Origin: a virus
DNA length: 64,000 nt
Direction: 5' to 3' (one strand)
IMG/VR virus record: IMGVR_UViG_3300035034_000127
Location: 1-64,000 of that record
Shown here piece after piece: positions 58,005-61,671 of the stretch. A program made the translations under genes and the position numbers. Each line of letters begins with the position of its first letter. Positions within the stretch are counted from its first letter, which is position 1. The notes under the pieces are model-generated. The model did no database searches. It was not told the origin of the DNA and was given only the letters and a program-made list of their open reading frames with translations.

Positions 58005-58012
58005 TATTTAGT
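58005..58012 (-). promoter_or_regulatory. Late-promoter-like element ACTAAATA for the structural block
   Basis: On the minus strand, CTAAATA-type late elements are described in T4-like cyanophages. It adjoins, sharing one base, the -35 of the divergent gp55 promoter. The predicted start (near 57999) leaves only a few bases before the GGAGA site. Confidence 0.4.
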
Positions 58013-58040
58013 TGACAAAATTAAGTATGTAGTTTATAAT
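58012..58040 (+). promoter_or_regulatory. Consensus sigma-70 promoter for gp55
   Basis: TTGACA (58012-58017) and TATAAT (58035-58040), both perfect, with a 17-base spacer. Predicted start near 58047, then AGGAG (58053-58057) 6 bases before TTG 58064. It puts the late sigma factor under host polymerase from the start of infection. Confidence 0.8.
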
Positions 58041-58063: not shown

Positions 58064-59926
58064 TTGAGAAAACGCAATTACTTAAATAACAGAGATATCC
58101 TCAAAGAAATTCATAAATCTAAAAATACTTTCAATAGTTACGTTGAGCCTAGCTACAATCAATATGATATCATTCTCAAGAACGTGGATGATATACACTT
58201 ATTGGAATCGTACATGGTTAACGACGAAGGCGAAACTGTCAAGATACTCGGAACTATAGCGCAAGCCAAAACTAACAAAGCAAAAAGACTGTCAACTGCT
58301 GAATATGAAAGAAGACGTATTGCTGGTGAAAAGGTTAAACAAGCGGAATGTGAAATTACTCCAGACGAAATCACTAAAGAAGAACTAATCTTCAGAGTCA
58401 TGGATTTTGATCATATTCCTGAACAGCCGGGAAGAAAGAAAAATCCAAAAACAATAGCAGACACCAAGGTCAAGCTAAACTTTCCTCCTTTCAAGCATTA
58501 CAAGTTTGAAGGAGATGATCTAGTATGTGTTGGAAAAAGTCATTGGAAAGGGGATTTGGAATCTGGACATTTTGACAGAGAACACGGCAAGGCCACAAAT
58601 AATCTAGCTCTAATGTGGCTTAAATTAGTTGATAGATACGCTACTCGTGGGAATGTTAGAGGTTATTGTGTTGATATAAACACCGAAGCACTAACCGATC
58701 GTGGTTGGATGAGTATAAACGAAATTAGCGAAAATGATCAAATTTTATCATATACTGACGGCAATTTGAAATGGTCAAAAATTAAATCAATATACCGAGG
58801 TGACTATAACGGGTTAATGCACAAAATGACTCTTCAAGGGTTTGACTCACTAGTAACGCCGGGGCACAAGTTTGTTACAGAACGGGGACTAGTTAAGGCC
58901 GAGCACCTTAAAGAAACTGACAAATTGGTATTACTAGGTAATGCAGTAGTTGACATTACCCCTGCTGTATATACAGATGAATTTGTTGAATTAATTGGAT
59001 GGATTGTAACCGAAGGATGTTATCAAAAAGGCAGAAACAACAAATTTGGATGCATTAGTGTCTATCAAAATAAAGGAATTTATGCTGATCGTATGAGAGA
59101 CTGTTTAACAAAATTAAATTATAAATTTTCTGAAAATAAAGAAAAAAATATATGCTTTAGAATTTCTGCAGAATCTAGTAGAAACGTTGAATCTATCTTT
59201 AAAGAAAAAAACCTTAATATGAAATTTATAATGTCATTGACATCAAATCAGCGGCAATTATTAATTGAGACAATGATTGACGGTGACGGATGGAGGACTA
59301 ATGGGTATAAAAGATATTGTCAAAAAGATCCTGCTCACGTAAACCTATTCCAGGCAGTGTGTGCTATTTCTGGCATAAGAAGTAATTCTCATCTAGTAGA
59401 TGGTGTGTCATTTGGGAAGCCTGTTACTTACTATAACATAAACTTGTTTACCGAAAAGAAAAATACAACTAGAGTAGAATGTGTAAATTTTCACGGTGGG
59501 AAGAATAACGGCAGAAACAGAACAACTGGACGCGGTAAAGAGTCACATCCTAACTATCCAACAACGCAGTATAACGGGAAAGTATGGTGCCCGGAAACTG
59601 AATATGGTAGTTTTGTAGCCAGAAGAAGTGGTGGGGTATTTTTAACCGGAAACACCTACAACGATGAAATGAAAGGCCAGGCGATACTACAACTAGCGCA
59701 AATAGGATTACAATTTGACGAATCCAAGTCAGACAATCCTTTCGCATATTATACGGCGGCTGTAACCAATTCGTTTGTGCGAGTGATAAATATTGAGAAG
59801 CGCAATCAAAACATACGTGACGATATACTTGAAATGAATGACTTAAATCCGTCACACACGCGAATAAATAACGGCAAGTGGGAAGCAGAGGTTAAACGCA
59901 ATGAGTCTAACTCAGAAAACAATTGA
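58064..59926 (+). CDS. gp55: Late transcription sigma factor gp55, interrupted by an intein
   Basis: 620 residues as translated; starts at TTG 58064 (AGGAG 6 bases upstream). The mature protein would be residues 1-201 joined to 531-620 (291 residues). The joined region reads NVRGY + TYNDEMKGQAILQLAQ, followed by FDESKSDNPFAYYTAAVTNS and FVRVINIEKRNQ, matching T4 gp55 (GYTQSWKQEM..., then NPHAYITQA...). T4 gp55 (185 residues) recognises TATAAATA late promoters with gp33 and the gp45 clamp. The intein interrupts the conserved GY-T junction within the sigma region-2-like core. The N-extein is longer than in T4. It overlaps the following endonuclease gene by 26 bases. Confidence 0.85.
   Translation: MRKRNYLNNRDILKEIHKSKNTFNSYVEPSYNQYDIILKNVDDIHLLESYMVNDEGETVKILGTIAQAKTNKAKRLSTAEYERRRIAGEKVKQAECEITPDEITKEELIFRVMDFDHIPEQPGRKKNPKTIADTKVKLNFPPFKHYKFEGDDLVCVGKSHWKGDLESGHFDREHGKATNNLALMWLKLVDRYATRGNVRGYCVDINTEALTDRGWMSINEISENDQILSYTDGNLKWSKIKSIYRGDYNGLMHKMTLQGFDSLVTPGHKFVTERGLVKAEHLKETDKLVLLGNAVVDITPAVYTDEFVELIGWIVTEGCYQKGRNNKFGCISVYQNKGIYADRMRDCLTKLNYKFSENKEKNICFRISAESSRNVESIFKEKNLNMKFIMSLTSNQRQLLIETMIDGDGWRTNGYKRYCQKDPAHVNLFQAVCAISGIRSNSHLVDGVSFGKPVTYYNINLFTEKKNTTRVECVNFHGGKNNGRNRTTGRGKESHPNYPTTQYNGKVWCPETEYGSFVARRSGGVFLTGNTYNDEMKGQAILQLAQIGLQFDESKSDNPFAYYTAAVTNSFVRVINIEKRNQNIRDDILEMNDLNPSHTRINNGKWEAEVKRNESNSENN
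58667..59653 (+). mobile_element. Intein with LAGLIDADG homing endonuclease domain, in gp55
   Basis: Residues 202-530 (329 aa) of the gp55 frame. Splicing blocks: Cys202 as first residue with block A (CVDINTEALTDRGWMSINEI); block B TPGH at 265-268; two LAGLIDADG-type helices, VELIGWIVTEG (308-318) and LLIETMIDGDG (399-409); and the C-terminal block (YGSFVARRSGGVFLTGN) ending in Asn530. The downstream nucleophile is Thr531. The residue before Asn is Gly, not the usual His, as in some phage inteins. Two acidic residues typical of active DOD helices are present, so the endonuclease may be active. Confidence 0.88.
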
Positions 59927-61646
59927 TAGCTTTCTAAATAAAAAAAGACTAACTTTTGCTTTGCTGGCAGCGTCTTGTTTAAAAGACAGCGCCGTCAGCG
60001 TGTCTTTGGCTATTAATTCTAAAAACGCAAGACAGGTATTACATCACATAGAAACAGGATCTACTATTGTACCCCAATGTCCTTGTGGTACTGCGTTAGC
60101 TTGGCATCCCGACAAATACTGCTATCGAACGTATTGTTCAAACGCATGTACAGCCACATACACTGTTAAGGAAAAGAAAAAAAAGAACCTAGAATTACTG
60201 GGAGTAGAATGGCATTCACAAAGTGCGGATTGGGCTAACAAGGTTAAAAAGACTAGTTTAGAAAAGTTCGGAGTAGACCATTACAGTAAAACTAATAGTT
60301 TCAATCAGGCAGTCAAAACCACTAACCTAAAAAATTACGGAGTAGAACACCCGGCGCAGAGCTTTGAAATTAAAGAAAAGATGATTGCAACTTGGAAAAA
60401 GAATCACGGCGTAACTAATCCAATGCAGCTATTAAGCGTTCGACAAAAAGTTGCAGAAACAACATTTGATCGGCTAGGTGTACACAACGCATTCAGTTGT
60501 TTATTGGTACAACAGCAAATCAAGCAAACTAATCTAGATAGATACGGCGTAGAAAATCCTATGCAATGTGTAGATACTCAATCAAAGGTTGTTGCAACAC
60601 GTAAAAAAAACTATTATACAACTGACACGCTAGATAAACTTCATTCGCCGGCCTGGTTATTTAAAGAACACGTTAGTGGAAAGACAATTACAGAAATTGC
60701 CAGCAACATTGGCGTAAGTTCCAGCAACTTAGCAAAGTATTTTCAAAAATACAATATTGACGTGATTCGGCATCGACAAACATACGCTGAAAAAAAGATG
60801 TTATCATTTTTTAATCACTATAATGTGAAAGTAATACCTAACAATCGAAGTATTATATCTCCGAAAGAACTAGACTTCTTTTTGCCCGAACATAATTTAG
60901 CAATTGAGATAAACGGAGTATACTGGCATACTGAACAGTTTAACAAACACTCACAGTATCATCTTAATAAAACTCAGGAGTGTGCGCAATTGGGTATTGA
61001 ATTATGGCAATTCTGGGATTACGAAATAGAACAGTTATGGGAATTGATCACTCAGAAACTGCTATCCAGAATGCAAATACAACAAAAAAAGACAGGTGCT
61101 AGAAAACTAAAAGTAGTTAATGTAGGTAAAGAACAAAAAAGTGCGTTCTTTGCTGAATCTCACCTACAAGGAGACTGCGGTAGTTCTATAAACCTAGGAC
61201 TAGTAGATCAACACCAAACATTGGTTATGTGTGCTAGTTTCAGTAAATCACGATTTTCAAAAAAACACAAATGGGAGCTAATAAGATTAGCCACAAAGAA
61301 AGGTAACCTTGTCGTCGGTGGGGCTAGCAAATTAATAGCTCGTTTCTCGAAAGATTATATGAAACACAACGAGAACCTAGTAAGTTATTGCAATCGTAGG
61401 TTTTCTAGAGGTAACGTTTACCAAAAACTAGGATTTACCTGCATTTCATCCAATACACCAGGGTATGTATATGCAAAAGGCAATAGAATTATAGGCAGTC
61501 GACAGCAATGGCAAAAACATAAGCTGGCAGCTAGGCTGGCGGTTTTTGATTCGAGACTCACCGAAGTTGAAAATATGGCAGCAAGTTCCTGTTATAGGCT
61601 ATGGGATTGCGGGCAAGATACTTGGGTACTAACTAAACTCCATTGA
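59901..61646 (+). CDS. Free-standing homing endonuclease, EDxHD/Vsr-like
   Basis: 581 residues. An N-terminal zinc-finger-like cluster (CPCGTALAWHPDKYCYRTYC, then SNAC) precedes about five repeats of the pattern K.t....yGv.np.q (residues about 115-235), found in phage homing endonucleases. An HTH-like segment follows (TITEIASNIGVSSSNLAKYF). The nuclease core has D325 (KELDFFLPE), E336 and N338 (AIEINGVYWH) and H343, the EDxHD/Vsr-like pattern. The C-terminal third is a further unassigned alpha/beta domain. It is inserted between gp55 and the gp47 promoter, overlapping the gp55 end by 26 bases. Confidence 0.8.
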   Translation: MSLTQKTIDSFLNKKRLTFALLAASCLKDSAVSVSLAINSKNARQVLHHIETGSTIVPQCPCGTALAWHPDKYCYRTYCSNACTATYTVKEKKKKNLELLGVEWHSQSADWANKVKKTSLEKFGVDHYSKTNSFNQAVKTTNLKNYGVEHPAQSFEIKEKMIATWKKNHGVTNPMQLLSVRQKVAETTFDRLGVHNAFSCLLVQQQIKQTNLDRYGVENPMQCVDTQSKVVATRKKNYYTTDTLDKLHSPAWLFKEHVSGKTITEIASNIGVSSSNLAKYFQKYNIDVIRHRQTYAEKKMLSFFNHYNVKVIPNNRSIISPKELDFFLPEHNLAIEINGVYWHTEQFNKHSQYHLNKTQECAQLGIELWQFWDYEIEQLWELITQKLLSRMQIQQKKTGARKLKVVNVGKEQKSAFFAESHLQGDCGSSINLGLVDQHQTLVMCASFSKSRFSKKHKWELIRLATKKGNLVVGGASKLIARFSKDYMKHNENLVSYCNRRFSRGNVYQKLGFTCISSNTPGYVYAKGNRIIGSRQQWQKHKLAARLAVFDSRLTEVENMAASSCYRLWDCGQDTWVLTKLH

Positions 61647-61671
61647 CATCAACAACTTAATGCTGTATAGT
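61643..61671 (+). promoter_or_regulatory. Sigma-70 type promoter for gp47 (TTGACA-17-TATAGT)
   Basis: TTGACA at 61643-61648 overlaps the stop codon of the homing endonuclease gene; -10 TATAGT at 61666-61671; 17-base spacer; predicted start near 61678. AGAGGA (61684-61689) precedes the ATG at 61695. The homing gene ends exactly at the promoter, so the insertion leaves gp47 expression intact. Confidence 0.72.

Follow-up and report, generated by a model that had tools for sequence, protein, structure and literature searches.

The late sigma factor gene gp55 of a T4-like phage is interrupted by what is very probably (probability about 0.93) a selfish mobile element, a large class 1 intein that encloses a LAGLIDADG homing endonuclease. 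The window, meaning the whole stretch of DNA that was analysed, comprised 64,000 bases out of a 72,030-base virus contig, and the frame at 58064-59926 (+ strand; 620 open codons, with a TTG start and AAGGAG ahead of it) was confirmed as a gp55-family late sigma factor split by an intein.

Genomic features of the gp55 locus

The candidate promoter and the three parts of the split gene are as follows.

58012..58040, + strand: sigma-70 consensus promoter (TTGACA-17-TATAAT) upstream of gp55; 12/12 match, by consensus only
58064..58666, + strand: gp55 N-extein, 201 codons from the TTG start; phrog_12791, late sigma factor
58667..59653, + strand: intein, C1 to N329, with the LAGLIDADG homing endonuclease domain inside; 329 residues, CVD to TGN
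59654..59926, + strand: gp55 C-extein, 90 codons and the stop, with Thr at +1; phrog_234, late sigma factor

Two PHROG late sigma factor families flank the 329-residue segment, one on each side: phrog_12791 matched residues 2-202 (E 3.7e-69), and phrog_234 matched residues 531-596, beyond the insert (E 1e-14). The exteins share their family with T4 gp55 (PDB 7d7c/7d7d), which differs in having no intein; a profile built from intein-free relatives matched T4 gp55 (7d7c) at E 4.1e-8. Without the insert, gp55 is 291 residues long.

The IMG/VR scan returned a gp55 protein without the insert and with 88% identity to that of the window (L013). When 58667-59653 was removed from the window and the remaining DNA was aligned to L013, the junction was crossed gap-free, the junction codons being GGT TAT / ACC TAC in the window and GGC TAC ACC TAC in L013. 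The empty site reads RGY(T/S)Y in all 86 intein-free relatives (L013 counted), and the cultured phages PA5oct and Atu_ph07 also have gp55 without an intein. The preliminary description, made from the letters alone, had placed an intein in gp55 at 58667-59653, with exteins rejoining at GY-T and an intein-free allele expected among relatives; the late sigma factor matches of the exteins, the gap-free alignment, the 86 intein-free relatives and the predicted intein-like fold (see below) all agreed with it.

The gene is followed by one of SbcD/gp47 type, and the opposite strand carries genes for virion and baseplate proteins; these neighbours fit a T4-like phage. A near-perfect candidate sigma-70 promoter (61643-61671; 11/12 consensus) was also seen upstream of gp47.

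Splicing residues, endonuclease domain and predicted fold

Conservation was counted over 54 non-redundant full-length intein copies. The motifs of the window copy and their conservation are listed below.

58667..58708, + strand: splicing block A, CVDINTEALTDRGW, with Cys1 as nucleophile; C1, T10, G13 and W14 each in 54/54
58856..58867, + strand: splicing block B, TPGH, with Thr64 and His67; both in 54/54
58991..59017, + strand: LAGLIDADG motif 1, LIGWIVTEG, acid Glu116; E in 53/54, N in the L167/L007 lineage
59264..59290, + strand: LAGLIDADG motif 2, IETMIDGDG, acid Asp207; D in 53/54, A in the L167/L007 lineage
59582..59653, + strand: splicing blocks F and G, VWCPETEYGSFVARRSGGVFLTGN, with Cys308 at F:4, Gly328 and Asn329; C308 and N329 in 54/54, G328 in 52/54

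The earlier claims that the frame holds the main splicing blocks and two LAGLIDADG helices were thus upheld, C1, T64, H67 and N329 being invariant and E116 and D207 being kept in every copy but one. The exception is the L167/L007 lineage, in which neither endonuclease acid survives but all of the splicing residues do. The +1 residue was Thr in 48/54 copies and Ser in 6/54.

The following features of class 1 inteins were present: Cys or Ser at position 1, TxxH in block B, a terminal Asn followed by Cys, Ser or Thr, an in-frame insertion and intein-free alleles of the host gene. The usual (non-obligatory) penultimate His was absent, and its place was taken by Gly (52/54) or Ser (2/54). Class 3 was considered and rejected; C308 (F:4) and T327 (G:5) are present, but B:12 lacks the expected Trp (the position holds F, L, I or M, with Trp in only one of the 54 copies) and Cys1 is invariant, and for these two reasons class 1 is the better fit. 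In mechanism, the gp55 intein looks like an ordinary member of class 1.

The AlphaFold model of the intein, a confident one (pLDDT 95.6, pTM 0.92), predicted an intein (Hint) fold, with the LAGLIDADG helices at 104-116 and 193-207. The best PDB fold matches of the predicted structure were the TliVMA intein (E 1.2e-15), PI-PfuI, PI-SceI and I-DmoI. With E-values from 1.2e-15 to 1.5e-8, the first three resemble the gp55 intein in having a LAGLIDADG endonuclease built into a splicing fold, and they differ from it in their host proteins, at 9-19% identity. The TIGR01445, LAGLIDADG_3 and Intein_splicing profiles match members of the gp55 intein family, and the window copy itself scores under the curated cut-offs (TIGR01445, 17.7 vs 24.5; LAGLIDADG_3, 16.6 vs 22.5). 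Where a pair allowed dN/dS to be estimated by domain (splicing and endonuclease), no value exceeded 0.24, and the closest pair gave 0.36 across the whole intein, showing that both domains are under purifying selection.

Insertion site in the sigma factor

In an alignment with T4 gp55, the intein sits at the Tyr63/Thr64 boundary; the predicted model of intein-free gp55 was too poor for this purpose (pLDDT 57.8), and the site was placed by way of the T4 gp55 structure paper (PMC7892883). According to that cryo-EM study, the helix after the site carries E70, D74 and E77, which bind the clamp helices of RNA polymerase, and promoter-pocket residues flank the site, with L54 and R57 before it and H95, Y97 and T99 after it. 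The insertion point is thus within the domain homologous to sigma region 2, and splicing should therefore be needed for function; judging by homology, gp55 should not function unspliced, and a deletion that removed the intein imprecisely should kill the gene.

Distribution of the intein family

The first IMG/VR scan, with the intein alignment as query, gave 80 kept relatives out of 151, all 80 of them at the same gp55 site, so the placement in gp55 is not due to chance. A second scan, with divergent copies as query, fetched 77 new records, mostly of contigs already found, and 77/77 were at the gp55 site (75 with the strict pattern, 1 ending at a contig edge and 1 in a cyanophage-type gp55). 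It contributed 10 further contigs, for a total of about 90 distinct contigs; the intein-bearing and intein-free samples were drawn by different queries, and these counts give no frequency. A cellular source was considered and rejected, as the relatives found in bacterial and archaeal genomes had at most 30% identity.

The same gene is also split in the cultured Synechococcus phage B23 (MN695335, b23_0289), at the same insertion point (NY/S), by an intein with the same blocks, both LAGLIDADG acids and 41-44% identity to the inteins described here. B23 differs in its exteins (25-30% identity), in being a distant host phage and in having Ser at +1. Its record lists b23_0289 as "hypothetical protein; phage T4-like gp55", with the intein unannotated.

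Horizontal transfer

Comparison of intein and extein DNA revealed copies that have moved between phages. The inteins of the window and L005 have 98.0% DNA identity over 842 bp (L005, the closest copy, stops at its contig end, and any downstream limit of the high identity would lie past it), while their N-exteins have 72.8%. Likewise, identity in the inteins against that in the N-exteins is 94.6% against 67.0% for L123 and L126, and 89.7% against 70.4% for L106 and L110. The reverse was seen in L159 and L162, whose gp55 exteins have 91.3% DNA identity while the inteins that occupy their shared site have 65.5%, which suggests that one allele has replaced another. The extein tree nests the window among intein-free phages with L013 as its sister, and it requires at least 3 changes of state. 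Inteins that are nearly identical although their gp55 genes have diverged, together with the converse case, show horizontal transfer.

Two further origins for the gp55 DNA of the window were tried and rejected. Co-conversion of flanking DNA from the L005 lineage did not agree with the 53-83% identity of the 150 bases that precede the intein, and a patchwork origin of the C-extein did not agree with L013 being unsurpassed as donor.

Proposed mechanism

Together, transfer, conservation and selection are what an active homing element would be expected to leave in the sequence, and we infer that the gp55 intein splices, cleaves and homes. The gp55 precursor would be translated whole, and the intein would excise itself through a thioester at Cys1, transfer to Thr+1 and cyclisation of Asn329, joining Tyr201 to Thr and giving a sigma factor of 291 residues. 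The freed endonuclease would then cut intein-free gp55 of co-infecting phages near the conserved TAY/ACNTAC, and repair of the break would copy the intein into the empty allele. The element would be shielded from deletion because it sits where an essential protein cannot be dispensed with.

Alternative explanations and neighbouring endonuclease genes

The preliminary description had gone further, proposing that splicing gates the switch to late transcription, that the Gly before the terminal Asn and the Thr at +1 point to slow or conditional splicing, and that TATAAATA late promoters occur across the window. The intein would then act as a post-translational timer, gp55 being inactive until a rate-limiting or condition-dependent splicing step, which is very unlikely. 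Such a role would agree with the insertion splitting the domain homologous to sigma region 2, by which unspliced gp55 should be inactive, with reports that other inteins splice conditionally, and with the perfect sigma-70 consensus promoter on gp55, by which the precursor could precede late transcription. However, many close relatives are intein-free, and all 86 of the intein-free relatives, sister L013 among them, manage without the element; moreover, the endonuclease is kept in 53/54 copies and copies move between phages, which fits a parasite, and the retained endonuclease favours a parasite over a tamed regulator. The reading of Gly-Asn and Thr+1 as signs of slow or conditional splicing was not supported, and the penultimate Gly was rejected as such a sign: it is present in 52/54 copies, and the mycobacteriophage RDF intein has a native penultimate Gly whose replacement by His slows splicing dramatically (PMC5050341). 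No enrichment of TATAAATA was found in the window (4 exact sites vs about 6.7 expected, only 1 of them upstream of a gene), and the late-promoter claim was not confirmed. The looser ATAAATA stands upstream of 5 genes (5/16 occurrences), a weak lead on late promoters. It is even less probable, to the point of being scarcely credible, that the segment is a dead intein retained as a permanent, non-splicing internal domain of gp55. The weak family-profile scores of the window copy would suit such a relic, but the splicing residues are invariant in 54 copies, the L167/L007 lineage has lost endonuclease acids only, the insertion cuts an essential fold and the segment is absent from near relatives.

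The remaining proposal adds to the selfish-intein explanation and concerns a second endonuclease gene at the locus.

59901..61646, + strand: gene for a free-standing, Vsr-like homing endonuclease; match to the homing endonuclease family phrog_3339, E 1.2e-109

This gene overlaps the final 26 bases of gp55, is absent from L013 and is possibly a companion element, separate from the intein. The two could be co-mobile, a break made by either moving both, which we regard as unlikely, if less so than the readings above. The window has both and its sister L013 has neither, and endonuclease-like genes lie just downstream of gp55 in 14/44 intein-bearing tree rows (some called by eye), whereas the intein-free loci have none. 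On the other hand, such a gene is missing from many intein-bearing loci, and a single clade supplies most of the intein-free sample. Once relatedness is allowed for, 3 independent contrasts are left and the link is suggestive but not significant; moreover, the window's downstream endonuclease and those of its relatives share only 28-44% identity. The gap between gp55 and gp47 was 17-70 bp in 84 intein-free loci. Among other intein-bearing phages it held GIY-YIG, HNH and other endonuclease-like types, and L124, L130, L165 and L176 had non-endonuclease genes there (desaturase-like, radical SAM-like and others, by eye); because such genes also occupy the gap, it looks like an insertion hotspot of intein-bearing phages.

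Similar elements in other genes

Outside the window, a second intein was observed at 71342-71824 of the contig (L001), in a gp20-like portal protein and truncated by the contig end. Its matches were Portal_T4 (E 8.7e-53), Intein_splicing (E 2e-7), a trace of HNH_3, and TIGR01445 at 29.8, above the 24.5 cut-off. A distant relative of the gp55 intein (23% identity) splits a gp47/SbcD-like gene at GHIH/C in L014 (3314-5443). The gp46 gene of L013 (5957-8848) is broken in its Walker A motif, GTGK/TT, by an apparent split intein whose two parts enclose a DUF559-like endonuclease gene; the locus in L248 is arranged alike, and gp46 of the window is unbroken.

Comparison with known inteins and significance

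Mycobacteriophage inteins in TerL, RDF and thymidylate synthase (Kelley et al. 2016, PMC5050341) are like the gp55 intein in their homing endonucleases and horizontal transfer, and they differ in their phages and host genes; the word "sigma" is absent from the main text of that paper. Inteins of the transcription machinery are represented by archaeal transcription factor IIB, going by a title cited in PMC7765530, and by the RNA polymerase subunit A'' intein (NCBIfam PRK14898), both from cellular hosts and with an unrelated insertion context. Searches of open-access papers turned up no description of an intein in gp55 or in any other sigma factor of a phage, and the earlier statement that no well-described gp55 intein is known stands within that scope. 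The gp55 intein family does not appear to have been described before; its new aspects are the host gene, the spread at a single site and the clear transfer events.

With this finding, a phage sigma factor joins the list of intein hosts, with a one-site intein family across about 90 environmental phage contigs. The recent moves between divergent phages make gp55 usable as a marker of gene flow among T4-like phages, and the endonuclease, with a conserved gp55 site as its target, could act between co-infecting phages. It also becomes testable whether or not an intein in the master transcription switch alters the timing of infection.
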